Source: Oscillospiraceae bacterium
GTDB lineage: Bacteria; Bacillota; Clostridia; Oscillospirales; Oscillospiraceae
Direction of reading: 5' to 3'
DNA length: 35,316 nt
NCBI GenBank assembly: GCA_021771635.1
Contig: JAETOQ010000018.1
Span: forward strand, 1 to 35,316
Each line of letters starts with the position of its first letter. Position 1 is the first letter of the stretch. The position numbers and the translations under genes were made by a program. The notes beneath the pieces are model-generated. The model worked only from the letters and a program-made list of their open reading frames with translations, was not told the origin of the DNA and ran no database searches. Positions 19,463-35,192 of this stretch are shown here, piece after piece.

Positions 19463-19951
19463 ATGCTGACGGGAAGAAGGGTGAGTGTGAAGAAGAAAAC
19501 GGATGACGGGGCCTTTTGCCGGGCCTATCTGCGGACGATGGACCCGGAACGGGCGGCCGCAGAGATCGGCCGCCGAGACGGATTCGCGCTTTTGGGCAGG
19601 AAGAGCACCCAGGAAAAGCTGGACGGGATGCGGACAGCCGCATCGGGGCAGCTACGGCGGGATGACGCCATCCGCCGTTTGGCGCAGCTGGCCTTTGGAC
19701 GGGCCAACGACGCGGTGAAGCTGGCCCTGCATGCCGGAGAGGCGGACACGGAGGGACTTGACCTGTCCGCCGTGGCGGAGTTCAAGGTGACAGACAAGGG
19801 CGGTGTGGAGGTCAAGCTGGTGGACCGGGTGCGGGCGCTGGAGACGCTGTGCGGCCTGCTGGAGAACGGAGAGGAGCACGGCGCGGAGGATTTGTACCGG
19901 GTGCTGGCGGAGGCCGCCGGCGAGATAGAGGGGGGATGGGAGAACGGCTGA
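19463..19951 (+). CDS. Terminase small subunit
   Basis: This is a 162-aa protein at the usual TerS position directly before TerL. The N-terminal part FCRAYLRTMDPERAAAEIG is the typical DNA-recognition helix pair of Terminase_2-type small subunits, and the rest is helical (oligomerisation). In PBSX the matching gene is xtmA. It would select DNA for packaging. The start ATG 19463 follows AGGTG; GTG 19487 (MKKKTDDG) is a credible alternative. Its stop overlaps the open frame of the large subunit. No upstream phage regulator is present. Confidence 0.78.
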   Translation: MLTGRRVSVKKKTDDGAFCRAYLRTMDPERAAAEIGRRDGFALLGRKSTQEKLDGMRTAASGQLRRDDAIRRLAQLAFGRANDAVKLALHAGEADTEGLDLSAVAEFKVTDKGGVEVKLVDRVRALETLCGLLENGEEHGAEDLYRVLAEAAGEIEGGWENG

Positions 19952-19985
19952 GATCATACGGTTTTCTCCCAAGCAGCTGCGGGTA

Positions 19986-21194
19986 TTGTCCTGGTGGCAG
20001 AGGGACGACTGGGAGGCCATTATCTGTGACGGCGCGGTCCGCAGCGGAAAGACCTTTTCCATGGGAGTGTCCTTTTTCCTGTGGGCCCAGGCGCGGTTCC
20101 ACGGCAGGCAGTTTGGCCTGTGCGGCAAGACCATCGTCTCGCTACGGCGGAACCTGCTGACGGAGCTGGTGCCCTATCTGCGGCGGATGGGGATGTCCGT
20201 CCGGGAGAAGCGGGCCGAAAACCTGCTGATCGTAGGATTCGCGGGGCGGGAGAACCGCTTTTTGCTGTTTGGCGGACGGGACGAGTCCAGCGCGGCGCTG
20301 ATCCAGGGGTGCACACTGGCGGGCATCCTGCTGGATGAGGCGGCGCTGATGCCCCGGTCCTTTGTGGAGCAGGCGGCGGCACGGTGCAGCGTGCCGGGAA
20401 GCCGGCTTTGGTTCAACTGCAACCCGGAGGGCCCGCAGCACTGGTTTTACAGGGAGTGGATCCTGAAGGCAAAGGAGCGGCGGGCGCTGTATCTGCACTT
20501 TACGATGGAGGACAATCCGGCCCTTTCACCGCGTATCCGGGCGCGATACCGAAACGCCTATTCCGGGGTGTTCTACCGGCGGTTCGTGCTGGGAGAGTGG
20601 ACGGCGGCCCAGGGACTGATCTACGACTTTTTTGACCAGGAGCGGGACCCGGCGGACGTACCGGAGGGGCCATTTAGAGAGTGGAGGATCTCCGTGGATT
20701 ACGGGACGGCCAATCCAGCGTCCTTCGGCCTGTGGGGCGAAAAGGACGGTGTGTGGTACCGGACGGCGGAATATTACTATGATTCCAGGAGGAGCGGAAG
20801 GCAGCGGACGGACGCGGAGTATGCGGCTGACCTGGAGCGGCTGGCGGCGGGAAGGACGATCCGGCGGGTCATCGTGGACCCGTCGGCGGCAAGTTTCATC
20901 GAAGCTCTGCGGCGGCGGGGATTTGAGGTCGTGCGGGCGGACAACGATGTGGCGGACGGCATCCGCGTGACAGCGGACCTGCTGAAAAGGCGGCAGATCG
21001 TGATCTGCCGCGATTGCCCGGACTGCCTGCGGGAGATGGCGCTCTACTGCTGGGATGAGCGGGGCGGCAGGGACGCTCCGCGAAAAGAGAACGACCATGC
21101 CATGGATGAGATGCGGTATTTCGCCATGGACCTGGCGAGAGACGCAGGCGGCGGCTTCGCGGCGGTGGCGGTGGAGCGGCCTGGCGACAGGTGA
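19986..21194 (+). CDS. Terminase large subunit (packaging ATPase/nuclease)
   Basis: This is a motor ATPase and headful nuclease (402 aa from the TTG at 19986), PBSX XtmB type. The ATPase has Walker A GAVRSGKT and Walker B AGILLDEA. The RuvC-like nuclease has ISVDYGTANP, VDPSAASF and the C-terminal DHAMDEMRYF. The family-typical start (FSPKQLRVLSWW) extends upstream of 19986 to about 19959. The frame there is open back to 19929 but has no ATG, GTG or TTG. Either an ATA/ATC start near 19953-19956 is used, or ribosomes shift from the small subunit. The real protein is probably about 10 residues longer than given. Confidence 0.9.
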   Translation: MSWWQRDDWEAIICDGAVRSGKTFSMGVSFFLWAQARFHGRQFGLCGKTIVSLRRNLLTELVPYLRRMGMSVREKRAENLLIVGFAGRENRFLLFGGRDESSAALIQGCTLAGILLDEAALMPRSFVEQAAARCSVPGSRLWFNCNPEGPQHWFYREWILKAKERRALYLHFTMEDNPALSPRIRARYRNAYSGVFYRRFVLGEWTAAQGLIYDFFDQERDPADVPEGPFREWRISVDYGTANPASFGLWGEKDGVWYRTAEYYYDSRRSGRQRTDAEYAADLERLAAGRTIRRVIVDPSAASFIEALRRRGFEVVRADNDVADGIRVTADLLKRRQIVICRDCPDCLREMALYCWDERGGRDAPRKENDHAMDEMRYFAMDLARDAGGGFAAVAVERPGDR

Positions 21195-21215
21195 CGAAAG
21201 AGAGGAGACTTGGCT

Positions 21216-22361
21216 TTGAGATGGTTCAAACGAGCAGGGACGGCGGCACCAGCGGCTGTGCAGCTGCGCAATGGCACCCGGCATCCCTTTGGAACGCTGC
21301 ATGACTATGTGCCGATGCGAAACGGAGAGGTCCGGCTGTACCGGGCAATACGGGAGGCAGTACCGCTGGTGGACGCGGCGGTCTATAAGCTGATCCGTCT
21401 GACCGGCGGCGTGACGGCGGTCTGCGGAGACAAAGCGGCGGAGAGGGCACTGGGGGAGTTTTTGCGCACTGTACCGGTGGGACGGGGACAGTTTGGCATC
21501 AATGCCTTTATGGACTGCTATCTGGATTCCCTGCTGACCTGCGGCCGGGCCATTGGGGAGATCGTGCCGGCGCAGGGCGGCCGGGATATTGCCGCGCTGC
21601 TGTGCGGACGGGTGGAGGATATTGAGATCAAAGAGGGGGAAAACCCGCTGGAATCCACCATCTGCGGGCTGGATCAGAATGGCCGGATGGAGCCGCTGCC
21701 CTATCAGGAGCTGCTGCTGTTCACACCGCTGAACCCGGAGGTGGACAGCCCATATGGCGTGTCGATGCTGCGGTCACTGCCGTTTCTGGCGGATATTCTG
21801 ATGAAGATCTACCACACCATCGGCGTCAACTGGGAGCGGTGCGGAAATGTGCGATTCGCCGTGACCTGCCGAGGCGGCGAGGGCGTCCCGGCGGCGGAGC
21901 GGAGCCGCCAGCTGGCGGAGGAGTGGTCCCGGGCCATGCAGGACACCAGAAACGGCAGCGTGCGGGATTTTGTGGCTGTGGGAGATGTGGGCATCCAGGT
22001 CATCGGCGGGGATGCGCCGATTTTGGACAGCGAGGTGCCGGTACGGCAGATCCTGGAGCAGATCGTAGCCAAGACCGGCATCCCGCCCTTCATGCTGGGA
22101 CTGAGCTGGAATTCCACGGAGCGGATGAGCGCCCAGCAGGCCGACATGCTCACCACAGAGATCACGGCTATCCGCAGGACTCTGACACCGGCGGCGGAGC
22201 GCATCTGCCGGCTGTGGCTGCGGATGCACGGATATCCCTGCGCGTTCGAGGTGGTGTGGGATGACATCAACCTGCAGGACGAGGTGGAGGAGGCGAAGGC
22301 GGAACTCTACCGGGAGCAGGCGCGGAAGCTGCGGATCGAAAACGACGCGGTGGAAACATAA
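21216..22361 (+). CDS. Phage portal protein
   Basis: This is a 381-aa portal protein, the ring through which DNA enters the head and to which the tail attaches. Family-like segments are VDAAVYKLIRLTGG, TPLNPEVDSPYGVSML and the late TGIPPFMLGLSWNSTERMSA. Its position after TerL matches PBSX xkdE. The TTG at 21216 is 8 nt from GAGGAG; an upstream TTG at 21210 is too close. Its last coding segment (22314-22346) is repeated with synonymous changes after the gene. Confidence 0.85.
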   Translation: MRWFKRAGTAAPAAVQLRNGTRHPFGTLHDYVPMRNGEVRLYRAIREAVPLVDAAVYKLIRLTGGVTAVCGDKAAERALGEFLRTVPVGRGQFGINAFMDCYLDSLLTCGRAIGEIVPAQGGRDIAALLCGRVEDIEIKEGENPLESTICGLDQNGRMEPLPYQELLLFTPLNPEVDSPYGVSMLRSLPFLADILMKIYHTIGVNWERCGNVRFAVTCRGGEGVPAAERSRQLAEEWSRAMQDTRNGSVRDFVAVGDVGIQVIGGDAPILDSEVPVRQILEQIVAKTGIPPFMLGLSWNSTERMSAQQADMLTTEITAIRRTLTPAAERICRLWLRMHGYPCAFEVVWDDINLQDEVEEAKAELYREQARKLRIENDAVET

Positions 22362-22513
22362 GAGCCCCTGCGAAAACCCAGCAAAGCGGTTTTCGTGAGG
22401 AGAGGAGGCGCAAAGGAGCGGGCGGAGTTTTCGCCGGAGGGCGGAAACGGAGCAGAGCGGGTTTGACGCCGACGGGGGAACAGGCACGGAAGCTGCGGAT
22501 CGAGAATGATTGA
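22314..22513 (+). repeat. Synonymous duplicate of the portal C-terminus
   Basis: The 33 bases at 22314-22346, inside the portal gene, encode EQARKLRIEND. The 33 bases at 22478-22510 encode the same eleven residues with five differences, all at third codon positions, then a TGA stop. The second copy has no open gene upstream. The 22362-22569 spacer also has a hairpin (22371-22378 with 22388-22395) and no gene. It looks like the tail end of a related portal gene left by recombination. Confidence 0.8.
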
Positions 22514-22569
22514 AAGGACCAGCCGCGGATCAGCAAAGAGACCGCGGCCGGGAGAGGAGCCGAGGTGGA

Positions 22570-23454
22570 ATGATGAACAGCGAAGAATTTGAGAACGGGG
22601 GATGCGGGATGGACATGCGGGAGGAATTGAGGCAGATCAATCGATTTGCCAAGGGAGAACTGACGGCGGAGCAGGTGTATGCCTTCAGCGTGCGGCTCTG
22701 CGACAACGAGGTGGACCGGGATTTTGAGCGGTTTGACGGCAGCGCACTGGAACGGCTGGGAGAACTGTTCCTGGGAAAGAGCGGCATCTTCGACCACCAG
22801 TGGTCCGCTGAAGGGCAGACAGCCCGCATTTACCGGACCGAAGTGGTGCGGGAGCCTGCGAGAGTTACAGCCGCCGGGGACGAATACCGCTGGCTGAAAG
22901 GCTGGGCGTATCTGCTGCGGACCGAGAAAAACGCGGACCTGATCGCGGAGATCGAGGGCGGTATCAAAAAAGAGGTCAGTGTGGGCTGCAGCATGGGGCG
23001 GAGCGTCTGCTCCGTCTGCGGCGCGGAGAACGGCGGCTGCCAGCACGTGAAGGGACAGATGTATGGAGACAAGCTGTGCTTCACGGAGCTGCGGGAGCCT
23101 GTGGATGCCTATGAGTGGTCGTTTGTGGCGGTACCCGCCCAGCGGGAGGCCGGCGTTCTGAAAAAGCGGTTCGGACAGGAGAGGGGCGACATCCTGACAC
23201 TGCGGAAGCAGGCCGAGCTGGGGGCCAGGTATCTGAAGGGACTGCGGCAGGAGGTGGTGCGCCTTGCCATGCTGGCGGATGACGGCCTGGACGGTCAGGT
23301 GTTCGCCAAGGCGGCGGAGCGGCTGGAGGAACCGGAGCTGCTGGAACTGAAGCGGGCGTATGAGGCCAGAGTGGCCAAGCGCTTTCCGGTGATGCCGCAG
23401 CTGCGCGGAACCGCGGCGGCGGAGCGAAGCGATGAAACAGTATTCCTCGTCTGA
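22570..23454 (+). CDS. Prohead maturation protease (HK97 type)
   Basis: This is a 294-aa protein at the prohead-protease position (PBSX xkdF-like). A protease-like core (about 30-190) has a candidate catalytic His in FDHQWSAEG and Ser in KKEVSVGCSMG. A SFVAVPAQ end resembles the vtvPAn motif of U35 proteases. The remaining C-terminal half is charged and helical, suggesting a fused scaffold domain. A cysteine pair CSVCG with a later C-H (CQHV) could bind metal. Start ATG 22570 or 22573 is possible; GGAG lies about 11 nt upstream. It should process the capsid protein during head assembly. Confidence 0.75.
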   Translation: MMNSEEFENGGCGMDMREELRQINRFAKGELTAEQVYAFSVRLCDNEVDRDFERFDGSALERLGELFLGKSGIFDHQWSAEGQTARIYRTEVVREPARVTAAGDEYRWLKGWAYLLRTEKNADLIAEIEGGIKKEVSVGCSMGRSVCSVCGAENGGCQHVKGQMYGDKLCFTELREPVDAYEWSFVAVPAQREAGVLKKRFGQERGDILTLRKQAELGARYLKGLRQEVVRLAMLADDGLDGQVFAKAAERLEEPELLELKRAYEARVAKRFPVMPQLRGTAAAERSDETVFLV

Positions 23455-23483
23455 GAGACGAACGATAGATAAGGAGGACAACA

Positions 23484-23843
23484 ATGAAGGTTTCTTATGA
23501 AGGGATCGGCCAGTGGGCCGCTACTTTCGCCTGCACGGAGGCAGTGGAGGGCGAGATGGTCAAGATCAGCGGCAGCGGTGAGGTGAGCGCCTGCGCCGCA
23601 GGGGACGGCTTCTGCGGCCAGGTACTGTCCGTGGGCAGAGACGGCGAGGCTTGCGCGGTGGCACTGGGCGGCATGGTGACCGCGTCTTATTCCGGTGACA
23701 CCGCGCCCAGCCTGGACTGGTGTGCGCTGGTGGCCGACGGCGAGGGCGGCGTGCGGACAGCCGGAGATGACGATGACAATGGCCGCAGCCATTTGGTGGT
23801 GGATGTGGACACCAGCGGCAAGACTGTGACCTTTGCACTGTAA
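23484..23843 (+). CDS. Capsid decoration-type protein
   Basis: This is a 119-aa beta-rich acidic protein between the protease and capsid genes, the usual place of head decoration or stabilisation proteins. It has alternating glycine and valine strands (VKISGSGEVSACAAGDGFCG, then GDDDDNGRSHLVVDVD) and no transmembrane segment. The ATG follows AAGGAGG. Its TAA stop is the first three bases of the 179-bp repeat copy B. The assignment is by position and composition. Confidence 0.65.
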   Translation: MKVSYEGIGQWAATFACTEAVEGEMVKISGSGEVSACAAGDGFCGQVLSVGRDGEACAVALGGMVTASYSGDTAPSLDWCALVADGEGGVRTAGDDDDNGRSHLVVDVDTSGKTVTFAL

Positions 23844-24019
23844 TACCATTTCTTGATAAAAAGATTTAAAAATCTTTTTATGGCGGCGTGAAACGCCGCC
23901 GCACCTGCGGCGCACCAAGAAAAGTATTGACAACATTCTTGGCGGCTGCGCCGCCGGGCCGCATTCTGCGGCCCCATAAAACGATTGCATCGTTTTATGA
24001 AAAATTAGTATAAGGAGGA
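23841..24019 (+). repeat. 179-bp multi-hairpin repeat, copy B
   Basis: It runs from the decoration-gene stop to the AAGGAGGA of the capsid gene. Successive palindromes are TAAAAAGATTT/AAATCTTTTTA, GGCGGCGT/ACGCCGCC, GCCGCA/TGCGGC, CCAAGAA/TTCTTGG, GGCGGC/GCCGCC, GGGCCGCA/TGCGGCCC and CATAAAACGAT/ATCGTTTTATG. It matches copy A (8809-8987) over the same length with 7 differences. As in copy A, the gene it precedes is read away from its AAGGAGG end. It holds a perfect TTGACA in a loop but no -10 at the right distance. Confidence 0.88.
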
Positions 24020-24027
24020 GAGAGCAT

Positions 24028-25062
24028 ATGGCTTATCATTTTGAGAACATCAAGCTGGAAAAGGGCATGTATGGCCGCAGCGGACACAGCTTTTCCCAGA
24101 CATTGGAGGAGCTGGACCCCAGTGAGCATTACCGGGGCACGCCGCTGGAGGGGATGGACGCGTTCCAGCGCCAGCTGAAGCGCTTTGACATCAAGGTGAA
24201 GGGCGCGGGCAGCGATATGGTGGAGAAATTTTTCCACACCACGGATTCCGCCGTGCTGTTCCCTGAGTTTGTGTCCCGTGTGGTGCGCCAGGGACTGGAG
24301 GAGGAGAGCATTCTGCCCGCTGTGACCGCCACGGTAACAAATTTTGACGGCATGGATTACCGCTCCATCGCCTCTGTGCCCACGGAGGAGCAGAAGGCGC
24401 TCAAGCGTGTGGAGGAGGGGGCAGAGATCCCTCAGACCGCCATCCGCACCCAGGAGAACCTGGTGCGGCTGCACAAGCGGGGCAGGATGCTGGTGGCCTC
24501 CTACGAGGCCATCCGGTTCCAGCGGCTGGACCTGTTTTCCGTGACACTGCGGCAGATCGGCGCCTACATCGGCCGGATGCACCTGCAGGACGCCATCGAG
24601 GTCCTGCAGAACGGCGACGGCAACAAAAACGCCGCGAAGACCTTTACCATCGGCACAAGTCCCATCTCCGGCACAAAGGGAACGCTGTCCTATGGCGCGC
24701 TGCTGGACTTCTGGAGCCAGTTTGATCCCTATACCATGAATACCATGCTGGTGAGCAGCGATATGATGCTGGCGATGCTGAAGCTGAGCGAATTCCAGAA
24801 TCCGCTGACTGGACTGAACTTCCAGGGCACCGGCTCACTGACCACGCCTCTGGGCGCAAAGCTCCTGCGCACGTCCGCCATGCCTGCCAAGACACTGATC
24901 GGCCTGGACAAAAACTACGCGCTGGAACAGATCTGCGGCAGTGAGATCACGGTGGAGTATGACAAGCTGATCGACCGCCAGCTGGAGCGGGCGGCAATCA
25001 CCTCCATCTCCGGCTTTGCCAAGCTGTTTCCCGAGGCATCCAAGGTCCTGACACTTGGCTGA
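24028..25062 (+). CDS. Major capsid protein (HK97 fold)
   Basis: This is a 344-aa coat protein placed where PBSX has xkdG. The N-terminal roughly 60 residues are charged and probably a scaffold-like arm. Then come HTTDSAVLFPEFVSRVVRQGLEE, VPTEEQKALKRVEEGAEIPQ and a C-terminal segment rich in strands (AKLLRTSAMPAKTLIGLD), matching HK97-fold capsid proteins. It starts at 24028 behind AAGGAGGAG, which is part of repeat B. It would be the most abundant product of the block. Assignment relies on position and general pattern. Confidence 0.82.
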   Translation: MAYHFENIKLEKGMYGRSGHSFSQTLEELDPSEHYRGTPLEGMDAFQRQLKRFDIKVKGAGSDMVEKFFHTTDSAVLFPEFVSRVVRQGLEEESILPAVTATVTNFDGMDYRSIASVPTEEQKALKRVEEGAEIPQTAIRTQENLVRLHKRGRMLVASYEAIRFQRLDLFSVTLRQIGAYIGRMHLQDAIEVLQNGDGNKNAAKTFTIGTSPISGTKGTLSYGALLDFWSQFDPYTMNTMLVSSDMMLAMLKLSEFQNPLTGLNFQGTGSLTTPLGAKLLRTSAMPAKTLIGLDKNYALEQICGSEITVEYDKLIDRQLERAAITSISGFAKLFPEASKVLTLG

Positions 25063-25119
25063 GCCGCACGGCGGACAGCTTTCCCTGCCGCGGAAAAAAC
25101 ATAAGTGGGGAGACCGAAT

Positions 25120-25485
25120 ATGAACGAGACGATTTTGGAACTGGCGAAGGCGGTGTCCGGCGCCGGAGAGGCGGAGGAAACACTGCTGGCGCTGCTGTGC
25201 GCGGCGGCGGAACAGAGATGGACCGCCCGGCTGCGCGACGGTGTGACGGTGGAGAAATGCGGCACGGCCTTCCGCTGCGCGGCGGCATTCACGGCCGCAG
25301 CGGACCTGATGGCGGAACGGGGCGGAGGCACCGTCTCCGCCTTTACCGCCGGAGAGATCTCCGTTTCAGGAAAAGGGAGCACGGAGCGCGCCGGATCGGC
25401 GGCGGAGCTGCGGCGGGCGGCGGAGCGGCTGATGGCGCCCTATGCGGAGTCCGATGACTTCAGCTTCAAAGGAGTGCGGGGATGA
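25120..25485 (+). CDS. Head-tail connector protein, XkdH-like position
   Basis: This is a 121-aa small helical protein directly after the capsid gene, where PBSX-type clusters carry the adaptor that lines the portal. It is alanine-rich with a conserved-looking centre (AFRCAAAFTAAADLMAERGG) and a late SDDFSFKGVRG. The ATG at 25120 has GGGGAG about 8 nt upstream. Its stop overlaps the next start (ATGA). No catalytic motif is visible. Confidence 0.6.
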   Translation: MNETILELAKAVSGAGEAEETLLALLCAAAEQRWTARLRDGVTVEKCGTAFRCAAAFTAAADLMAERGGGTVSAFTAGEISVSGKGSTERAGSAAELRRAAERLMAPYAESDDFSFKGVRG

Positions 25486-25802
25486 TGGACTGGGTACGGG
25501 AGGTGCTGGCCCGGTATGGGCAGGAGACTGTGGTCCGAACGGCGGAGGGAGAGACAACTGTCCGGGCATTTTTGCAGCCGGTGGCGGAAAAGCGGGAGCA
25601 GGTCCCCGGCACAATGACTGCCATCGGGTGGATCGACGAGCGGCTGTGGCTGTATCTGGGGCAGGCGGCGGTCTCCGAGGGAGATACCGTGCGGTGGAAG
25701 GACATGTCTTTTCGGGTGCGGAGCAGCCGGCCCTATTATATCGGGGAGACGATGACACACTGGTGGGCCGCTTTGGAACGGGAGAAGGAGGCGGCGGAAT
25801 GA
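25482..25802 (+). CDS. Head closure / neck protein, XkdI-like position
   Basis: This is a 106-aa mixed-sheet protein. Its middle, IGWIDERLWLYLGQAAVSEG followed by DTVRWKDMSFRVRSSRPYYI, resembles head-closure proteins that seal the connector. The ATG at 25482 overlaps the upstream stop and follows AAAGGAG. The next gene begins in its ATGA. Assigned mainly by order between connector and sheath. Confidence 0.58.
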   Translation: MMDWVREVLARYGQETVVRTAEGETTVRAFLQPVAEKREQVPGTMTAIGWIDERLWLYLGQAAVSEGDTVRWKDMSFRVRSSRPYYIGETMTHWWAALEREKEAAE

Positions 25803-26293
25803 AGGAACTGATGCAGGTGCGGGACGCGGTGATATCCGCACTGAACAGCGTGGGCGTACCGGCACTGGCGGCATTTCCCGCCAGCCGGGCAAAGCAGTAC
25901 AGCGGCGCGGTGGCGGCAGTTGCCGTGGGCGCTGCCGAGGGAAAGGCCCTGGGGTTCTGCAATTACCTGGGCGAGGTGTATGACTCGGAGGCGGGAACGG
26001 TGCGCGAGCTGTATGGAAAACAGCTGGAGTGCGTGATCACCGTGGACGTCCGGGCGGAACGGGCCGCGGACTGTGAAAAAGCCTGCGGGACAGCGGCGGA
26101 AGTGCTGCTGGGCGGACTGCCCAGCGGCATCCGCCCCGGTGAATTGACCTGGGAGGCTCTTTGCTGGGAAAAGGAGACGGGGATGTTTCTGCGGCGGGGC
26201 GGCCTTCAGTGCCGGGCGGTATTTACAGCACAGGAACAGGAGGACAGAGCAATGTTCCTGGACTTTATTTTGAGAGGAGTCATGACGAATTGA
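25799..26293 (+). CDS. Tail completion / neck protein, XkdJ-like position
   Basis: This is a 164-aa protein that overlaps the upstream gene (ATGA) and the sheath start by 4 bases. The pattern RDAVISALNSVGVPALAAFPASRAKQ then VITVDVRAERAADCEKAC resembles tail-terminator proteins, which cap the tail tube under the head. The ATG at 25799 follows AAGGAGGCGGCGGA. Function is inferred from order and overall pattern. Confidence 0.58.
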   Translation: MKELMQVRDAVISALNSVGVPALAAFPASRAKQYSGAVAAVAVGAAEGKALGFCNYLGEVYDSEAGTVRELYGKQLECVITVDVRAERAADCEKACGTAAEVLLGGLPSGIRPGELTWEALCWEKETGMFLRRGGLQCRAVFTAQEQEDRAMFLDFILRGVMTN

Positions 26294-28061: not shown

Positions 28062-28066
28062 CGGAC

Positions 28067-28678
28067 ATGGACTACGTGAGGGAGGAGCTGGCGCGGCAGC
28101 GGCTGGCGCTGGCCCTGCTGATGATGGGCGAGCGGACACGGGAGCCCGTGGAAGAACGTATGGGGACAGGGGAACAGGAGCCTCTGTCCCCGGCGGAGGA
28201 GTATATGGGGACGGAGGAGCGGAGGCACCCGTCCCCGGAGAAACAGCGGATGTCCGGAAGCGAAACGGAGGATAGCGGTGTTCCTCAGCTCTGGCGGCAG
28301 ATGGAGGACGGCGGACGGTTCCATGGCCCGCGAGACGGGGCGGACTTGAACTGGACAGCTTCTCTGCGGCGGGATGCGATGGGGGAAGCACGTCGGGCTG
28401 AACAGGCCTTTCATGGGGAGGTACTGGGCGGGGGCCCGATCAAGGGACTTCTTGAGGAAAGACAAATGAGCGCCGGAGGGACCGGGATGGCTGGCACCGG
28501 AGATCTGGCGGAGAAGATGAAAAAGCGGGAAAATGTGCCGTTGGATGGCGAAGCCATGGAACGGACGGTGACGGAGATCCTGTGGACGGGATCTGAGGAA
28601 ACGCTGGGCCCCGGGGAACTGTCCCGGACATTCCAGCGGGACGCACGGCGCTATGACGGCGGCTTTTCCCTGTACTGA
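28067..28678 (+). CDS. 203-aa protein of unknown function in the tape-measure slot
   Basis: It occupies the position where PBSX-type clusters place the very large tape-measure protein, but is only about 203 aa. The N-terminus is helical (MDYVREELARQRLALALLMMGERT). The middle is low-complexity, with two in-frame palindromic repeats. The C-terminus is LSRTFQRDARRYDGGFSLY. No hydrophobic tape-measure core is seen. It may be a degenerate tape measure, a C-terminal remnant, or a chaperone extension. GTG 28049 and 28058 are alternative starts; ATG 28067 is chosen. Function unknown. Confidence 0.5.
   Translation: MDYVREELARQRLALALLMMGERTREPVEERMGTGEQEPLSPAEEYMGTEERRHPSPEKQRMSGSETEDSGVPQLWRQMEDGGRFHGPRDGADLNWTASLRRDAMGEARRAEQAFHGEVLGGGPIKGLLEERQMSAGGTGMAGTGDLAEKMKKRENVPLDGEAMERTVTEILWTGSEETLGPGELSRTFQRDARRYDGGFSLY
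28158..28242 (+). repeat. Two tandem palindromic repeats inside a coding gene
   Basis: Two roughly 42-bp units follow one another in frame (28158-28200 and 28201-28242). Each is a hairpin with arms GGGGAC.../...GTCCCC (28162-28167 with 28186-28191; 28207-28213 with 28230-28236). They encode similar peptides, MGTGEQEPLSPAEEY and MGTEERRHPSPEKQ. They look like REP-type sequences inserted in the tape-measure-slot gene. Confidence 0.65.
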
Positions 28679-28693
28679 GAGGAGAGATCGGAT

Positions 28694-29281
28694 GTGCGGC
28701 TGACACCTATGCGGTATAAGAATTTTACATGGCCACACAACCCGGAGATATATTCCGTGGAGTACCGGCGGCAGGTGGCGGCACACAAGGTGCCCTTTGG
28801 GCGGTGTGTGCTGCAGGACCTGGGCTGCACCTATCGGGTCTTGCGGGGAGAGGGCGTTTTCGCGGGGGAAAACGCCTACCGGCAGTTTCGGGAACTGGCT
28901 GAGGTGTTTCAGGAAGGCGGTCCTGGGCTGCTGGTGCATCCCGTGTGGCAGTCGGAGCGAGTCTACTTTGTGGAGCTGAGGGTGGAAGAGAGACCGCTGC
29001 CGGACTATGTGCGGTACAGCTTTACCTTTTGGGAGGACTGGAGCGGGTACAGCGGCGGGCTGACGGAGAGCAACGACGGAGGCACCGCGTCCTGGACAGG
29101 CGGCTGGACGGAAGCTGACACGGAGGAGGCCGCGGGGACGCTCTATACTGTGCGGAAAGGAGATACCCTGTGGGGCATCGCGAAGCAGTATGATGTGACG
29201 CTGGCTTCGTTGATCGCCGCCAATCCACAGATCAAAAATCCCAATTTGATCTATCCGGGGGACAGGGTGAGACTTCCATGA
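28694..29281 (+). CDS. LysM baseplate protein, XkdP-like
   Basis: This is a 195-aa protein. The N-terminal roughly 120 residues form a baseplate-hub-like domain, and the C-terminus is a LysM module (about 145-193: YTVRKGDTLWGIAKQY, then NPNLIYPGDRVRLP). PBSX XkdP has the same build and position. It probably joins the tape-measure end to the hub and binds peptidoglycan. Start GTG 28694 is 7 nt from GAGAGGAGAG. Its stop overlaps the next ATG. Confidence 0.8.
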   Translation: MRLTPMRYKNFTWPHNPEIYSVEYRRQVAAHKVPFGRCVLQDLGCTYRVLRGEGVFAGENAYRQFRELAEVFQEGGPGLLVHPVWQSERVYFVELRVEERPLPDYVRYSFTFWEDWSGYSGGLTESNDGGTASWTGGWTEADTEEAAGTLYTVRKGDTLWGIAKQYDVTLASLIAANPQIKNPNLIYPGDRVRLP

Positions 29282-30225
29282 CTGGACGTATTTTTACCAG
29301 CGAACACCGCGTCTTTGATCTGCCGAAGCCTCTGTCCTGGAGCGTGACACATACGGGAACAGTGCCCTGCGACAGCTATTCCATCACCTGCCTGTATGAC
29401 AAGAGCATGGCGGAGGTATTGCATCTGGCGGCGGGCTTCGCGGCCATGGAGGATGGGGTGACGATGCTGCGGGGCATTGTGGATGAGTACACGATAGACC
29501 TGGGAACGGAAGGCTTGACGGCCACTGTGACGGGGCGGGGATACGCGGCCCGGCTGCTGGACAATGAATCCCGCCCGCTGACGTATCAGGACGCAACGCT
29601 GGCGGAGATCGTGCGGTGCCACGTGACGCCCTACGGCATTTCCTGTGAAGAAATGGCGGATGTGCGGGCCGGCTCCGTATACACTGTTGCGGCAGGAAGC
29701 AGCCAGTGGAAGGCGCTGGAGGGCTTTTGCCGGACCTACGGGGGCTTTTCGCCCCGGTTCAGCCGGGATGGAAAGCTGCTGGCGGCACCGGAAAAGGACG
29801 GCGGGCGGCGGATCATGATCGGGGATGAAGATCCGGTGCTGTCCTGCACGTTGCGGGAGGACCACTACGGTGTGCTGACGGAGGTGCTGGTCATCGACAA
29901 GACCCGGAATGTGTCCTATGACGTGAAGAATCAGGACATGATCGACCGCGGTGGACAGTGCCGCCGCGTGGTCTATACCCCGGGACAGAGCACTTGGGCG
30001 GCCATGCGGTATACCGGGGAGTATCAGATCGAGCGGTCGAAAGAGGAGGAGAAGTCCATCGTGCTGCGCCTGCCGGGGAGCTTCTTGGCCTTCCCGGGGG
30101 ATATCGTGGAGCTGAACATGGAGCGGATGGGACTGACGGGAACCTTCCGGGTGGCGGAGGCTGAAAACGAGTTCTCCGCAAAGCAGGGCGCTGTTGTGAC
30201 ACTGACGTTGAAGGAGAGAAAATGA
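29278..30225 (+). CDS. Baseplate hub protein, XkdQ-like
   Basis: This is a 315-aa protein of the XkdQ/gpD (gp27-like hub) group, forming the central ring of the baseplate. Segments such as GIVDEYTIDLGTEGLTATVTGRGYAARLLDNES are typical of this family, and the C-terminal FPGDIVELNMERMGLTGTFRV is an OB-like strand region. The ATG at 29278 overlaps the previous stop (ATGA). The order after the LysM protein matches PBSX xkdP-xkdQ. Confidence 0.78.
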   Translation: MTGRIFTSEHRVFDLPKPLSWSVTHTGTVPCDSYSITCLYDKSMAEVLHLAAGFAAMEDGVTMLRGIVDEYTIDLGTEGLTATVTGRGYAARLLDNESRPLTYQDATLAEIVRCHVTPYGISCEEMADVRAGSVYTVAAGSSQWKALEGFCRTYGGFSPRFSRDGKLLAAPEKDGGRRIMIGDEDPVLSCTLREDHYGVLTEVLVIDKTRNVSYDVKNQDMIDRGGQCRRVVYTPGQSTWAAMRYTGEYQIERSKEEEKSIVLRLPGSFLAFPGDIVELNMERMGLTGTFRVAEAENEFSAKQGAVVTLTLKERK

Positions 30226-30226
30226 G

Positions 30227-30637
30227 ATGTGGCTTTCCAAACAGATGAAACAGGCGATGCCGACGGCTGATGCGGATCTGGGCATGACGACGATCGCCGG
30301 GGACAGCGTGGGAGTCGTGACCCGGGGCGAAGTGCGGGCGCTGCCGGTGTATGGGCCTGGCGGTTATGTGTGGCTGCCGGAAAACGGCGCGGCGGTGCTG
30401 GTGATCAAGGGAGGACCCGGGGGCGAGGAGCAGTGCGTGGCCGGAATGAAGCAAATGCCTGCACCCAAAGGGATGAAGCCTGGAGAGGTCATGGTATACG
30501 GCCCCCGGGAGAACGCCGTCTATTTGAAAAAGGACGGGACTGTGGAGCTGCGGGGAACGAAGATCGCCATCGAGGGCTATCTGACGATCAACGGAGTGCC
30601 TTATAAACCCTGCACCTGCGGTGAGATGGAGGCGTGA
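30227..30637 (+). CDS. Baseplate spike-like protein (gpV/XkdR-like position)
   Basis: This is a 136-aa beta-rich protein. Its second half, EVMVYGPRENAVYLKKDGTVELRGTKIAIEG, shows the repeating-strand pattern of cell-puncturing spike proteins, and it ends with PCTCGEMEA. Position after the hub fits the gpV/gp5-like spike at the tip. It begins 1 nt after the hub stop. There is no lysozyme domain. Assigned by pattern and position. Confidence 0.65.
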   Translation: MWLSKQMKQAMPTADADLGMTTIAGDSVGVVTRGEVRALPVYGPGGYVWLPENGAAVLVIKGGPGGEEQCVAGMKQMPAPKGMKPGEVMVYGPRENAVYLKKDGTVELRGTKIAIEGYLTINGVPYKPCTCGEMEA

Positions 30638-30638
30638 G

Positions 30639-30992
30639 ATGGAACTGCAGCTGAAAAACGGAGATTATGTTCCCAACGGCGCCGGCGGACTGCGGCGGGT
30701 GATGGGAAACGAGGAACTTTTGCAGCGGGTGTTGTTTAGGTTGACGGCCCGGCGGGGGAGATTTCCCTTTTGGGAGGAGCTGGGCAGCAGGCTGTGGCAG
30801 CTGGGACAGGTGCCCGCCGCCCAGCGTCAGAGCGCCGCGAAGCAATACGTGACGGAGGCACTGGCGGACGAGAGCGGACTGCGCGTGGAGGCTGTGGAGC
30901 TGACGGCAAAAGATGACGGTACGGCGGAGCTGACGGCGGAGCTGTCTTACGGGGGAGAGCGTTTGTCGGCGGCACTGGATATCCAATTATGA
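30639..30992 (+). CDS. Baseplate protein, XkdS / gp25-like
   Basis: This is a 117-aa protein with a helical centre (RFPFWEELGSRLWQLGQVPA) and a VTEALADESGLRVEAVELT pattern like gpW/gp25 and XkdS baseplate wedge proteins. It starts with the ATG just after the spike-gene stop (TGAGATG) and ends 13 bases before the gp47-like gene. Position between spike and gpJ supports the call. Confidence 0.75.
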   Translation: MELQLKNGDYVPNGAGGLRRVMGNEELLQRVLFRLTARRGRFPFWEELGSRLWQLGQVPAAQRQSAAKQYVTEALADESGLRVEAVELTAKDDGTAELTAELSYGGERLSAALDIQL

Positions 30993-31005
30993 GAGGTGAT
31001 GACCG

Positions 31006-32064
31006 GTGAGGAGCATCGAAGAGATCTATCAGGAATTGCTGGAGACATTTGGGACAAGGGCGGGATTCGTGCCGGAGGACAGCTGCGACATGGCGGTACG
31101 CCTGTGGGCTGCAGCGGCACAGATCCAGGCACTGGGCATCCAGGCGGACTGGGTGCTGGACCAGAGTTTTCCGCAGACGGCCCAGGGCATCTATCTGGAC
31201 CGCCACGCGGCCATGCGGGGCCTGCATCGGGCACCGGCCTCCAAGGCTGTGGGAACGCTGCGGTTTTTCGTGGAAATGGCGCCTTCCGCGGATATCACGA
31301 TCCCGGCGGATACGGTGTGCATGACAACAGACGGGGTGCGCTTCCGCACCTCGGAGGCAGTGGTTTTGAAGGCGGAAACGCTGACTGCCGACGCGGCGGC
31401 GGAGGCGCTGGAGGGCGGGAGCCGCGGCAACGCGGTGCCGGGAGCGGTGGCGATCCTGACAGCCTGCCCCATCGCGGTGACAGGGGTGACGAATCCCGCA
31501 GCCTTTACCGGCGGCAGTGACGCGGAGGACGACGAGGCGCTGCGCCAGCGTATTTTGGAGAGCTACCGGCGGCTTCCCAACGGGGCCAATGCCGCGTGGT
31601 ATGAACAGACGGCCATGGCTCATGCCGGTGTGGCGGCGGCCAGGGCTGTCGGCAGGGCCAGGGGGACCGGCACGGTGGACGTGTATGTGGCCGGGGAAAG
31701 CGGCCAGCCTACGGCGGAGCTGCTGGCGGAGCTTCAGGCGGAATTGCAGGAGAAGCGGGAGATCGCCGTGGATGTGCAGGTAAAGGCACCGACGGTCCAG
31801 ACGGTGGATGTGGCGGTGGAGGTAGCCGCCGGAGAGGGTGCGGACTTCACCGCGGTCAAGACGGCGGCGGAGCAGGTGATCGCAGATTTTTTCGGGGGCC
31901 GTCTGCTGGGCCAGCCGGTGCGGCTGGCGGAGCTGGGCAGCCGGATCTATGCACTGGAGGATGTGGCGAATTACCACTTTTCCGCACCTGCGGCGGACCT
32001 GGCGGGGGACGATACGGTCCTGCCTATGCTGGGGACGCTGACGGTGACGGAGATGGAGGCGTAA
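31006..32064 (+). CDS. Baseplate J / gp47-like protein
   Basis: This is a 352-aa protein of the baseplate J family (PBSX XkdT, P2 gpJ), the outer wedge connecting to tail fibres. It shows the long N-terminal helix region, GIYLDRHAAMRGLHRAPASKAVGT, and DAEDDEALRQRILESYRRLPNGANAAWYEQTA, a hallmark of this family. A C-terminal sheet region follows. It starts with GTG 31006, with GAGAGGTGAT upstream. No truncation is seen. Confidence 0.88.
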   Translation: MRSIEEIYQELLETFGTRAGFVPEDSCDMAVRLWAAAAQIQALGIQADWVLDQSFPQTAQGIYLDRHAAMRGLHRAPASKAVGTLRFFVEMAPSADITIPADTVCMTTDGVRFRTSEAVVLKAETLTADAAAEALEGGSRGNAVPGAVAILTACPIAVTGVTNPAAFTGGSDAEDDEALRQRILESYRRLPNGANAAWYEQTAMAHAGVAAARAVGRARGTGTVDVYVAGESGQPTAELLAELQAELQEKREIAVDVQVKAPTVQTVDVAVEVAAGEGADFTAVKTAAEQVIADFFGGRLLGQPVRLAELGSRIYALEDVANYHFSAPAADLAGDDTVLPMLGTLTVTEMEA

Positions 32065-32067
32065 GGG

Positions 32068-32640
32068 ATGTATGAACAGTATCTGCGGGATCTGTTGGCG
32101 CCGCTGGGTATCTATGACCTGAAAGATGGGACCATCAACAGCGTGGAACTCTATGCGCTGGGCGCGGCGCTGGACACGGTGAGTGGGCGCATGGAGACCG
32201 TGGAGCGGGAGGCGCTGACGGCGACGGCGGAGAATGAGGGACTTTCCCGCCGGGAGGCGCTGTTTGCCCGCCGCCCTGCGGCAGTAACGCCGGAGGAGCG
32301 GAGAGCGGCTATCGCGGCGTTGCTTCAGATCAATGGAGACAGCCTGACACCTGAGGAGATCAACCGGACGATTCGGGGGTGCGGGATCCGGGCCAAGGCG
32401 CTGGAGATGGGCGGCGGAAACCTTCGGGTGATCTTTCCGGAGGTGGCCGGTGTCCCGGCGGAATTTGAGCAGATCCGGAAGATTATTCTGGATATCCTGC
32501 CCTGCCACCTGGCGGTGGAATTCTATTTCCGCTATCTGACCTGGGAGGAATGCGAGCAGGCGGGCTTCACCTGGGCGGCTGTCGAGGCGGCGGAACACAC
32601 ATGGGAGAGCTTCCAGTTGGCGGTGCCGCCGGAGGACTGA
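32068..32640 (+). CDS. gpI / YmfQ-like baseplate protein (XkdU)
   Basis: This is a 190-aa protein of the YmfQ/DUF2313 group (PBSX XkdU), next to gpJ as in P2-like phages. Typical features are the start YLRDLLAPLGIYDL and the C-terminal LPCHLAVEFYFRYLTWEECE. It is the last recognisable structural gene. In other contractile phages a large tail-fibre gene follows; here an 80-bp gap and a deacetylase gene follow instead. Confidence 0.8.
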   Translation: MYEQYLRDLLAPLGIYDLKDGTINSVELYALGAALDTVSGRMETVEREALTATAENEGLSRREALFARRPAAVTPEERRAAIAALLQINGDSLTPEEINRTIRGCGIRAKALEMGGGNLRVIFPEVAGVPAEFEQIRKIILDILPCHLAVEFYFRYLTWEECEQAGFTWAAVEAAEHTWESFQLAVPPED

Positions 32641-32720: not shown

Positions 32721-33551
32721 ATGTTTCAAATCCGCCGCCGGTATGTGGTGATGATCATGGTGCTGGCGCTGGTCCTGTTTATTGCAGGAAATCTTTACCT
32801 GTGGGACCAAAGGGAGGCGTTCGTGACGGTGGCCGGTGACGCCGCTGTGCCCGCGTCCGTGGACAACTGGGGGCTTTCCTTTCAGACGGAGGGCGAGGCG
32901 CCCGTGGGCAACGCCAGCGTCTCGGACCTGGCGCGGTATGACGCCTATTATCTGGGGGACACCTCGAAAAAGGTGATCTATCTGACCTTTGACTGCGGGT
33001 ATGAGAACGGGTACACGGAGAAGATCCTGGACGCGCTGAAAAAGCACAATGCCCCGGCGGCCTTTTTCGTGGTGGGCAATATGATCGAGACAGCGCCGGA
33101 CATCATCTGCCGCATGGCGGAGGAGGGGCATATCGTGGGAAACCACACCTTCCACCACCCGGACATGTCCGCCATCTCGGAACAGGCGGCGTTCCAAAAG
33201 GAGCTGGACGATCTGGCGGCGCTGTACCGGGAGACGACGGGGCAGGAACTGCCGAAATTTTACCGGCCGCCCCAGGGGAAGTACAGCGAGGACAATCTGA
33301 AGCAGGCGCAGGCGCTGGGATACCGGACGATCTTGTGGAGCCTGGCCTATGTGGACTGGTACGTGGACGACCAGCCGACGGCGGAACAGGCCTATGCCAA
33401 GCTGCTGCCCCGCATCCACGATGGAGCCATCGTCCTGCTGCACTCCACGTCCAAGACCAATGCGGATATTCTGGACGAGCTGCTGACCAAGTGGGAGGAT
33501 ATGGGGTACACGTTTGCGTCCCTGTATGATCTGCCGGCACAGACACACTGA
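32721..33551 (+). CDS. pdaA: PdaA-like polysaccharide deacetylase
   Basis: This is a 276-aa NodB-fold deacetylase of the PdaA (delta-lactam-biosynthetic) group, which removes the acetyl group from peptidoglycan MurNAc so that spore cortex muramic lactam can form. An N-terminal membrane helix (about 9-26) anchors it. The catalytic motif is TFDCGYENGYT (D91), the metal histidines are H142 and H146 in NHTFHH, and RPPQGKYS and ILWSLAYVDW follow. Bacillus PdaA has Asn where Cys92 sits (TFDNG). ATG follows GGAGG. It sits between the tail genes and the lysis genes. Confidence 0.9.
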   Translation: MFQIRRRYVVMIMVLALVLFIAGNLYLWDQREAFVTVAGDAAVPASVDNWGLSFQTEGEAPVGNASVSDLARYDAYYLGDTSKKVIYLTFDCGYENGYTEKILDALKKHNAPAAFFVVGNMIETAPDIICRMAEEGHIVGNHTFHHPDMSAISEQAAFQKELDDLAALYRETTGQELPKFYRPPQGKYSEDNLKQAQALGYRTILWSLAYVDWYVDDQPTAEQAYAKLLPRIHDGAIVLLHSTSKTNADILDELLTKWEDMGYTFASLYDLPAQTH

Positions 33552-33598: not shown

Positions 33599-33678
33599 GA
33601 TGTGGAATGAATGCGTGATCAAATGCGGTGAGCGGCAGGGATACGGAAAACGATCATGACGAACGAAGGAGAGACATA

Positions 33679-33960
33679 TTGTACATTTCTATCGAAACCA
33701 TTCATGATGCCGCCAAGCTGCTGGGCAGCCTGGCTGTGATCGGCACGGCTCTGCTGGCACTGTACAGGTTTTTCGAGCGGGATAAAAAACAGGGGAAGAT
33801 CATCCGAGACATTCAGGAGGAACAGACGCTGCTTTGCTATGGCATCCGGGCGTGCCTGCAGGGACTTGCGGAGCAGGGGTGTGATGGACCGGTCCATGAT
33901 GCGCTGGACCGGCTGGATAAGCATTTGAATCAAAAGGCACACCGTGAGACGGCGGAGTAG
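33679..33960 (+). CDS. Small phage membrane protein near holin region
   Basis: This is a 93-aa protein with one membrane helix (about 10-27) and a helical charged tail (EQTLLCYGIRACLQGLAEQGCDGPVHDALDRLDKHLNQKAH). The tail is of a type common next to holins in clostridial prophages. It starts with TTG 33679, 6 nt from AAGGAGA. Probable role is in lysis or its control; function is not established. Confidence 0.6.
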   Translation: MYISIETIHDAAKLLGSLAVIGTALLALYRFFERDKKQGKIIRDIQEEQTLLCYGIRACLQGLAEQGCDGPVHDALDRLDKHLNQKAHRETAE

Positions 33961-33976
33961 GTGGAAGCGAAAGGCT

Positions 33977-34258
33977 ATGAGAAGGAAGAAATGGACCACG
34001 AGCAAGACCATCGCTATGGGAATTTTGCTGGTGGATGGAAGCGCTACATATATCGTTCTGGGGTTGTGCGGCATTGCTATCCTCCGGAATTTCAGCGGAG
34101 CACTGCCCTATCTGACCACGCTGATCGGGGCGCTGCAGGCGGCCGCCGGATATGTGCTGGGGGCCTATTTTAGAAAAAGCGGCAGGGAGAACACAAGGGG
34201 CGGCATCGTTTACGACGCCGCGCTGAACGCATGGAGTCCCAATGACAGTGACTTATAG
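33977..34258 (+). CDS. Two-helix membrane protein, holin-like
   Basis: This is a 93-aa protein with two predicted membrane helices (about 14-34 and 39-61) and charged ends, a holin-like topology. ATG 33977 is chosen; the ribosome site is weak (AAAGG). The C-terminal end (DAALNAWSPNDSDL) overlaps nothing. It could be the pore-forming holin that releases the CHAP endolysin. Confidence 0.55.
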   Translation: MRRKKWTTSKTIAMGILLVDGSATYIVLGLCGIAILRNFSGALPYLTTLIGALQAAAGYVLGAYFRKSGRENTRGGIVYDAALNAWSPNDSDL

Positions 34259-34267
34259 GAGAATGTT

Positions 34268-34486
34268 ATGAAAGAACTTATCATCAGGCGGATGGCCAAT
34301 CTGGTGTCCGTCAAATCCGTTGTGACGCTGGTACTCACCGGGGTATTTGCCTATATGGCATGCCGCGCGAAGATCTCCCAGGATTTTATGACCATTTACG
34401 CGGTCATCATCGCATTTTATTTTGGCACCCAGAGTCAGAAGATGCAGGACGCGGTGGACAAGGCGGCGGATAATGGCGGCCTGTGA
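34268..34486 (+). CDS. Small holin-like protein
   Basis: This is a 72-aa protein with two short hydrophobic segments (about 16-32 and 41-53) and a charged C-terminus. It begins 9 bases after the preceding stop and overlaps the endolysin start by 14 bases. It forms a three-protein membrane set with its neighbours. Exact role unknown. Confidence 0.55.
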   Translation: MKELIIRRMANLVSVKSVVTLVLTGVFAYMACRAKISQDFMTIYAVIIAFYFGTQSQKMQDAVDKAADNGGL

Positions 34487-35192
34487 ACAGCTGCTGCGGA
34501 TCGCGCAGGGAGAACTGGGCGTCAGAGAATTTCCAGCCGGAAGCAACCGGGTGAAGTATAACACGGCTTATTATGGCAGGGAAGTTTATGACACGGAGAC
34601 CGCCCAATATCCGTGGTGCGTGACGTTTATCTGGTGGCTTTTTCAGAAGGCGGGAGCGCCGGAATTGTTTTTTGGCGGAGGAAAAACAGCCAGCTGCGGC
34701 GTGTTGATGGATCATGCCAAGGCACACGGGCTGTTTGTGTCTGGAAACTATCAGCCGGGCGATCTGGTGTTTTTCCGCTTTCAGGGCAAGGGAGGCCCGC
34801 AGCATGTGGGGTTGGTCAAAGAGGTGCGGGCCAACGGAGACCTGGTGACGGTCGAGGGCAATACGGGGTCGGACAACGACGCCAACGGCGGCCAGGTCCA
34901 GCAACGGGTACGGAACGGCGCGTTGGCTGTGGGCGGATACAGGCCGGAATATGAGGAGGACAAAGTGAAGACATATGAGAAGCTGAAGGATGTACCGGAA
35001 AAGTTCCGGCCTGTCATAGAGCGACTGATGGATGCGGGTGTCATTCAGGGCGACGGCTCTGATCCCACCGGCAATGGAGATGTGATCAGCCTGACACACG
35101 AACAGGTGCGGACGCTGGTGTTCGTCTACCGGGGCGGCGGCTTTGACCGCCGGCTGACGGCGGCCGGAATGGAACCGGCTGTGAAAGCATGA
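34473..35192 (+). CDS. CHAP-domain endolysin
   Basis: This is a 239-aa cell-wall hydrolase. The CHAP/NlpC-like catalytic domain (about 1-155) has nucleophile C49 in YPWCVTFIWW, H111 in QHVGLV and a third polar residue near E128-N130. It is followed by a helical C-terminal region (about 173-239: KLKDVPEKFRPVIERLMDAG) that may bind the wall. No signal peptide, so it needs a holin. The start overlaps the preceding gene. It ends 5 bases before the right-edge repeat. Confidence 0.85.
   Translation: MAACEQLLRIAQGELGVREFPAGSNRVKYNTAYYGREVYDTETAQYPWCVTFIWWLFQKAGAPELFFGGGKTASCGVLMDHAKAHGLFVSGNYQPGDLVFFRFQGKGGPQHVGLVKEVRANGDLVTVEGNTGSDNDANGGQVQQRVRNGALAVGGYRPEYEEDKVKTYEKLKDVPEKFRPVIERLMDAGVIQGDGSDPTGNGDVISLTHEQVRTLVFVYRGGGFDRRLTAAGMEPAVKA

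Follow-up and report, generated by a model that had tools for sequence, protein, structure and literature searches.

RcGTA, a gene transfer agent (GTA), is vertically inherited, and the order xtmAB, xkdE-U, which we take to be that of the PBSX genes, served as our reference for a contractile particle of phage origin. GTA-like packaging has been described from faeces: 17 of 25 events were assigned to Ruminococcaceae, three of 25 to Oscillospiraceae (Onthomonas) and three of 25 to Christensenellaceae; of the four metagenome-assembled genomes searched, one, a Faecalibacterium, held a strong candidate operon, and none was reported for Oscillospiraceae (PMC12946183). The Faecalibacterium agent (FpGTA) is reported to have 40 nm heads, about 9 kb of DNA and no identifiable tail (PMC12946183). 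Here, we describe a block of phage-type genes in an Oscillospiraceae bacterium. The window, meaning the whole stretch of DNA that was analysed (35,316 bases; contig G000:C9 in our labelling), is one complete contig of a 2.80 Mb draft genome. The block occupies positions 19463–32640 on the plus strand and carries, in phage order, genes for small terminase (TerS), large terminase (TerL), portal, head, sheath, tube, baseplate and spike. Searches of the open-licence PMC literature listed no paper that gives a description of the block.

The block is very probably a domesticated contractile phage module. Domestication is supported because there is a single strong copy per genome, agreement with the host RpoB tree, a ratio of non-synonymous to synonymous substitution (dN/dS) below 1, a recurrent site within a genus group, no named phage with a close capsid, portal or sheath, and no space in the relatives for a tape measure of phage size. 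A domesticated contractile particle, perhaps GTA-like, had been proposed by the first-pass annotation of this DNA; its first part is upheld by the copy number, the RpoB agreement, dN/dS and the absence of a close named phage, and its second part is, by analogy, the best reading available to us. We consider it probable that the block is a vertically inherited contractile module, kept by selection, which acts as a GTA-like particle with a stub tail. A role in gene transfer appears the most likely function because the analogy is joined by packaging genes that are kept and constrained, and by published packaging in the family. In common with GTAs, the locus has a phage-derived structural and packaging cluster, vertical inheritance (traced in 25 family genomes), purifying selection and no recognised integrase or replication genes.

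To follow descent, trees were built from ten block proteins and from RpoB in 25 family genomes where RpoB is full-length, five of 30 genomes being dropped for a partial RpoB. RpoB frames were chosen by a conserved motif, and four tree blocks with stops or a frameshift in one protein (L036, L043, L059 and L080; loci are labelled L and genomes G) were masked with X or cut. The block and RpoB trees had 18 of 22 splits in common, whereas shuffling the labels 1000 times gave 0.24 on average and never more than 3; the two sets of distances were correlated (Spearman 0.755), with 0 of 9999 permutations as high. The block is vertically inherited within Oscillospiraceae, and because the RpoB identities span 71–99 per cent, its association with the host is old. 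Repeated independent captures of related phages, in place of one domestication, would fit the different sites occupied in different genera and the interleaving of sheath-less and sheath-bearing versions in the order-level tree described below, but the splits held in common with RpoB inside the family make this very improbable.

The block genes are under purifying selection. Using the Nei-Gojobori method, 24 of 28 relatives tried were usable, the other four having too few genes; two genomes stand twice in the locus set, namely L036/L144 (Oscillibacter valericigenes An860) and L037/L132 (Oscillibacter sp. PC13). Against the closest named relative (L126, an uncultured Dysosmobacter), the median dN/dS over 19 genes was 0.157 and the maximum 0.534, with single-gene values of 0.058 for the tube (the block minimum), 0.076 for the major capsid protein (MCP) and 0.110 for TerL. 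Across the 24 relatives the medians were 0.15–0.38, in line with the earlier expectation of ratios below 1. These values bear on whether the block is a decaying ancient prophage remnant without function. Missing phage genes, one frameshifted TerL and a patchy presence are what such a remnant might show, but the low median over 19 genes, the same gene order across more than 100 loci and frames mostly open in 53 leave it scarcely credible.

Distribution was measured with the baseplate J protein (gpJ) and the MCP. At E < 0.001, gpJ was matched in 87 of 200 family genomes, and the table of matches was bimodal: strong matches (E 5e-49 or better) occurred in 67 genomes, source included, with one strong copy each, and the next best was 4e-30. 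The weaker matches include other contractile elements, such as contig C60 of the source genome. The MCP was found in 57 of 86 genus genomes (one of the 57 matches being a 48-residue fragment), or 32 of the 42 of good quality; in 71 of 394 order genomes, with exactly one match in 69; and in 11 of 391 class genomes, eight of them inside the order, with only weak matches in the remaining three (E 3e-59 to 2e-31). Among the best 80 of 520 stretches, the named relatives of the capsid were Oscillibacter, Dysosmobacter, Flavonifractor, Pseudoflavonifractor, Intestinimonas and other Oscillospiraceae. The block is thus present in about a third of the sampled family genomes, including the fully sequenced O. 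valericigenes Sjm18-20 (L148; G747, 4,410,036 bases).

The anatomy of the block was conserved in 53 loci fetched with their flanks from the 66 other genomes with strong gpJ. The sheath was matched in 51 of the 53, and TerL and the baseplate I protein (gpI) spanned 11.2–14.0 kb in 46 of the 47 loci holding both genes. No gene was out of order in 160 further loci (80 from named genomes, 80 from IMG/VR), a count from which minus-strand matches had been excluded beforehand, in which many loci are partial and at least 11 named loci repeat genomes of the first set. Frames were mostly open in the 53 loci checked. Internal stops were flagged in 16 sheath rows at positions 4–92, which we read as a query extended upstream of the true start; the remaining single-row stops lay mostly near an end (L080, L043, L059, L084, L050, L048, L061 and L053), and the TerL of L036 was the sole clear frame break among the loci with flagged stops. 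With motif patterns of our own devising, 48 family TerL proteins yielded Walker A in 47, Walker B in 44 and the nuclease motifs in 46–47, or 37 with a stricter pattern for the first nuclease motif. Within Oscillospiraceae, L065 (G116) had no match between the capsid and the LysM protein and a TerL–gpI span of 7.9 kb; its sheath and tube have apparently been lost independently.

The recognised genes in the 19 kb to the left of the block belong to the host: a Pst-type transporter, PhoU, two-component genes, GerA, LysR, ZIP, and a DUF4118 kinase with its cognate regulator, among several frames without a family match. The kinase, the regulator and a 197 aa protein without a family match are the last genes before the block. 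The response regulator and DUF4118 histidine kinase (KdpED-like; 16579–18470, minus strand) mark a recurrent chromosomal site. In 15 of the 80 named loci the terminases are preceded by a KdpD-like gene (66–87 per cent identity), accompanied in nine by the 197 aa neighbour, and the same site was present in large contigs of G667, G749, G671, G748 and G688, the last two being L135 and L152 counted again. This KdpDE-flanked site recurs in Oscillibacter-type genomes, within a genus group only; O. valericigenes Sjm18-20 and other genera have different sites, with host flanks that include RecG (four members), GidA and ribosomal protein L1, and the largest cluster of common flanks comprised 12 of 54 loci. 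The fixed chromosomal site envisaged by the first-pass annotation therefore stands within the genus group but not beyond it.

The same annotation had seen no integrase or replication genes, and profile scans of the window's 40 main frames likewise recognised no integrase, replication, tape-measure or fibre gene. Flank scans of relatives covered 85 of 123 upstream and 117 of 131 downstream candidate frames; no integrase was among the first 25 flank families per side, although a single integrase could escape such a scan. The recognised flank genes were mostly those of the host, and among the downstream families displayed the blocks were followed by host genes or lysis genes. In a search of 30 genomes, none of the integrase matches listed lay within 30 kb on the block contig, except in G104 and G082. 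We weighed on this basis whether the block belongs to a temperate phage or satellite that is active but incomplete, with its integrase, replication, tape-measure and fibre genes elsewhere in the genome. Integrases occur in 29 of the 30 genomes, though among the matches listed mostly not beside the block; the source genome holds a second contractile element with a tape measure of 829 aa; and, since the window is a complete contig, the right flank is unreadable in the source genome. Vertical descent with one strong copy per genome, the recurrent genus-group site and the lack of named phages with a close capsid, portal or sheath oppose this account, which we judge very improbable.

In a comparison with 50,697 phage records, the only close relatives of the capsid (five records), portal (five) and sheath (two) were on faecal 'Bacteriophage sp.' scaffolds that are unverified or unannotated, and the tube matched two such faecal scaffolds only. 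Named phages came no closer than 28 per cent for the capsid and portal and 34 per cent for the sheath. A PBSX-type terminase has been reported in a phage of Faecalibacterium (PMC13432834). The accession numbers of the faecal scaffolds did not appear in passages of PMC8361208, considered as their possible source. One scaffold deposited as a human-faecal bacteriophage, MT835508.1 (L309), carries Rnf-type subunits, ABC transporters and SecY around its head genes, and is a bacterial chromosome. In IMG/VR, 293 stretches encode capsid relatives, and of 80 retained most are on contigs of 4–15 kb, with the largest at 55 kb; many short 'viral' database contigs may be resident host loci.

A further feature of the block is its tape-measure slot. 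The 203 aa gene earlier noted in this slot lies at 28067–28678 when read from ATG, or 28049–28678 (209 aa) when read from GTG, and has a conserved C-terminal RDxRRYD motif. The gap between the tube and the LysM-bearing protein was 315–1544 nt in the first locus set, where measurable, and 488–1537 nt in two further sets (67 and 47 loci), and the longest closed open frame within it was 311 codons over 167 loci (the window and duplicates counted). A phage-sized tape measure has no room in the relatives' blocks. Five other contractile loci from this family (L089–L093), used as a control, carry tape measures of 681–829 aa by PHROGs, adjoining the LysM match in L090 and L093 only. One of these loci, L089 (G000:C60), is the second contractile element of the source genome, with the 829 aa tape measure. 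Three loci from outside the order, L350–L352, match in MCP, decoration and XkdF-type genes, and L351 has a tape measure of 1761 aa and L352 a frame of 1781 aa; these were rejected as proof of tape-measure loss, since no sheath-sized frame was seen between capsid and tape measure.

The slot proteins share an ending. Of the 158 last frames before the LysM gene, 132 end in a motif of the R-D-x-R-R-Y-D type, with lengths of 102–304 aa and, in this motif-bearing set, a middle rich in A, E, G, R and P; a wider scan found the motif in 143 of 167 loci, with 24 lacking it. The AlphaFold model of the slot protein has a confident N-terminal helix (residues 4–25), a low-confidence unstructured middle and a weak C-terminal helix (pTM 0.23), and its dN/dS of 0.53 against L126 was the highest in the block. 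In 32 of the 167 loci the motif lies in one unbroken frame that starts at the chaperone position. Because the motif is sometimes continuous with the chaperone frame, and in view of the features of the slot protein, we infer that it is a chaperone-type extension and not a shortened ruler. The logic is comparable to that of GT in phage lambda, in which the T part is an extension of the chaperone.

The PBSX-like order from terminases through gpI and the open frames described by the first-pass annotation are borne out by domain, PHROGs and fold matches. Family matches were taken from Pfam, with curated cut-offs, and from PHROGs. Above the Pfam cut-off were Terminase_6N, Phage_capsid_4, Phage_sheath_1, Phage_sheath_1C, LysM, DNA_circ_N, Baseplate_J, Polysacc_deac_1 and CHAP; below it, with identities that lean on position, were Terminase_2, Phage_portal, the gp44-like hub, Sheath_initiator and Mu Gp48. 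PHROGs lends further support to the baseplate hub, small terminase and endolysin.

The packaging and head genes begin with TerS (19463–19951, 162 aa), matched by Terminase_2 (3.6e-4), aligned only over profile positions 59–128 of 141, and by phrog_51 (1.4e-6) over residues 17–129 of 162. TerL (19986–21194, 402 aa) has ATPase and nuclease motifs (Terminase_6N, 4.2e-12), and the portal (21210–22361) is assigned by synteny and a sub-threshold Phage_portal match (4.1e-6). At the XkdF position, which we take to be that of a scaffold/protease, is a head protein (22510–23454) without a Pfam family that matches phrog_16951 (1.8e-126; function not annotated). There follow a decoration-type head protein (23484–23843; phrog_4588, virion structural, 8.6e-30) and the MCP (24028–25062; Phage_capsid_4, 3.9e-17). 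The two head–tail connector positions (25105–25485 and 25482–25802) are placed by synteny with weak matches to phrog_541, a head–tail adaptor (0.024), and phrog_939 (0.013), respectively. A 164 aa protein at the tail completion or terminator position (25799–26293) is placed by position, with no Pfam match, and was matched in 44 of 54 loci (window counted).

In the tail region, the sheath frame is open over 26161–27351, its true start probably near 26290, and matches Phage_sheath_1C (2.6e-11), Phage_sheath_1 (6e-11) and, by phmmer, the phage sheath 5li2 (2.6e-5). The tube (27364–27753) is assigned by position and by phrog_27038 (5.1e-67; function not annotated) and phrog_985 (2.2e-5). The frame at the XkdN-like tail-assembly chaperone position (27660–28061), probably coding from about 27753, is placed by position, has no family match and is matched in close relatives. 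Beyond the slot protein lie the XkdP-like baseplate protein with LysM (28694–29281; LysM 9.2e-17, DNA_circ_N 1.9e-7) and the XkdQ-like baseplate hub (29278–30225; phrog_177, 4.1e-40, with the gp44-like hub below the Pfam cut-off). The protein 3' of the hub, at the XkdR position (30227–30637, 136 aa), is by its predicted fold a contractile-type membrane-piercing spike: the model (pLDDT 79) best matches Mu gp45 (9ki1, E 6e-5) and P2 gpV (3qr8, E 4e-4), and a Mu gp45 profile matches at 3.2e-5. The baseplate genes end with the gp25-like sheath initiator XkdS (30621–30992; Sheath_initiator 3.2e-5, sub-threshold), gpJ (XkdT; 31006–32064; Baseplate_J 1.4e-51, diffocin TRI-2 4.8e-14) and the Gp48-like gpI (XkdU; 32068–32640; Phage_Mu_Gp48 1.2e-5, sub-threshold).

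No fibre gene was recognised after gpI, as had been noted, and the next genes, all on the plus strand, encode a deacetylase, membrane-type proteins and a CHAP protein. The polysaccharide deacetylase (32721–33551; Polysacc_deac_1 7.6e-37) is possibly a resident host gene, with a particle accessory as the alternative; it adjoins gpI in the window, L126, L127, L136, L233 and L358. The putative lysis cassette, 3' of the block, comprises a small membrane-type protein at a holin/XhlA-like position (33628–33960; phrog_1009, 5.8e-7, function not annotated), a putative holin (33944–34258; judged by size, hydrophobicity and place, with no holin family match) and a CHAP endolysin (34422–35192; CHAP 6.7e-12, PHROG endolysin 3.5e-30), and the contig ends 124 nt beyond the endolysin. 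All four genes, from the deacetylase through both membrane-type proteins to CHAP, also follow gpI in L126 and L127, and the second membrane-type protein and CHAP stand directly 3' of gpI in L148 (Sjm18-20), L152, L240, L243, L246 and L251; L148 and L240 are apparently the same organism. Besides L126 and L127, nine loci have the putative holin after gpI, some of which may represent one organism twice. The 117 downstream proteins of relatives included three holins, three M15 lysins, two GH25 lysins and three CBM5/12 proteins, the last being possible wall binders in a few genomes.

Release genes and a contractile apparatus would also suit a PBSX-type killing particle, in which host DNA is packaged and not delivered, and contraction kills neighbours as a bacteriocin does. 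The PBSX gene order, the spike, sheath and baseplate, the putative holin and endolysin, and tail genes at least as constrained as the head genes are all compatible with it. Against it, there is no recognised tail fibre, a tape measure of phage size would not fit, and TerL, portal and MCP are constrained; several order-level relatives show no sheath or tube yet keep TerL, portal and MCP, the opposite of what tailocins do. We treat a killing particle as unlikely, though still a serious contender.

A GTA-like particle of this kind might work as follows. TerL would fill small heads with host DNA, and tube, sheath and baseplate would form a contractile tail of stub length without a tape measure, with the chaperone and slot protein serving as assembly aids. 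Holin and endolysin would lyse the producer cell; the spike and the LysM-bearing baseplate would then contact the wall of a nearby relative, the receptor-binding part perhaps being encoded elsewhere, and contraction of the sheath would inject the DNA.

Several observations weigh against a GTA-like role. The particle is known from its genes alone, and from these we infer packaging and transfer. The reported Onthomonas packaging (PMC12946183) is linked to the block through family membership. Strong gpJ was lacking in 133 of 200 family genomes, L065 had neither sheath nor tube and L067 no sheath match. In L036 (= L144, O. valericigenes An860), TerL is frameshifted between residues 229 and 233, either an assembly error or a real loss. 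TerL is also less distinctive, with matches in 1214 phage records and up to 50–52 per cent in named phages. Among the matches listed for 30 genomes, G104 has an integrase 7.7 kb from the block and G082 one 29 kb away, and no tail-fibre or receptor-binding gene was recognised in the window frames or in downstream scans of relatives. Finally, mean dN/dS against L126 was about 0.19 for head and 0.18 for tail genes; because the head is not more constrained than the tail, constraint alone does not single out packaging.

Relatives outside the family show a range of tail states. We fetched 20 loci from other families of the order (the name Oscillospirales being deduced from named members), of which L223–L225 are cut by contig ends; genes without a match in these loci may be diverged, except where spacing leaves no room. 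Sheath and tube were matched in L208, L210 and L211 (family f26) and in L225, and the sheath in L223. In L216, L218, L220 and L222 (f23), genes from LysM to gpJ or gpI were matched with no sheath or tube match, and the capsid–LysM distance was 0.75–1.6 kb. In five loci (L206, L207, L209, L213 and L215) little was matched beyond TerS, TerL, portal, the XkdF-type protein and MCP; two of them, L209 and L213, have three more unmatched frames before apparent host genes. A common HflX-ArgG-ArgH host neighbourhood was seen in L216, L218, L219 and L222 (four of the 20), and a TerL of the G506 type in 72 of 128 f26 genomes at E < 1e-30. In L219, a connector and a tube-like domain occupy one open frame (capsid +1285 to +2013), which may represent an intermediate stage of tail loss.

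In a TerL–portal–capsid tree of 37 loci, family f1 grouped together and sheath-bearing and sheath-less forms were interleaved in f23 and f26, an interleaving that suggests several losses of sheath and tube across the order. We tentatively propose, at somewhat less than even odds, that a single domestication of a contractile phage took place near the base of Oscillospirales and that the module has since descended with its hosts, the tail being lost stepwise and the Faecalibacterium GTA being the most reduced. The steps would run from a stub tail in Oscillospiraceae, through forms in other families whose baseplate sits on the head with sheath and tube gone, to FpGTA. Were this so, the order would hold a gene-transfer system of gut bacteria that is contractile, with traceable family-wide descent and a tail assembled without a tape measure.

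The block is a candidate source for the faecal packaging attributed to Oscillospiraceae in the published report (PMC12946183). Since one carrier strain is completely sequenced and the block occurs widely, the question is directly testable. If the GTA-like reading is true, a contractile member would be added to the known gene transfer agents, and it would raise the question of how a tail forms without a tape measure.

Compared by gene order with PBSX of Bacillus subtilis, the block has the same order from terminase to gpI, a LysM-bearing XkdP-like protein and lysis genes after the tail, but no tape measure of XkdO size, no recognised fibre of the XkdV type and no recognised adjacent repressor; an XkdT-named relative was found in BalMu-1. 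It resembles diffocin and the R-type contractile bacteriocins in its gpJ, which is related to diffocin TRI-2, and in a spike fold like that of pyocin R2 and P2. These bacteriocins have fibres and no head or terminase genes, whereas TerL, portal and MCP are present and constrained here. Like the block with its short slot protein, RcGTA has a short protein in the tape-measure role: a protein of about 216 residues, made up of a 113-residue helix plus 83 plus 20 residues, fills a tail of five tube discs (PMC7296036). The RcGTA tail is siphovirus-like, with a tape measure that opens with a long helix (PMC7296036), whereas the present tail is predicted to be contractile and the confident helix of the slot protein has 22 residues. 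The layout of L206, L207, L209, L213 and L215 is like that of FpGTA I (10.5 kb), a likeness by layout only, and FpGTA is reported to have its lysis genes in a second operon and no replication genes (PMC12946183). Unlike FpGTA, described there as podovirus-like with a tail that is not identifiable (PMC12946183), this block keeps sheath, tube, spike and baseplate.

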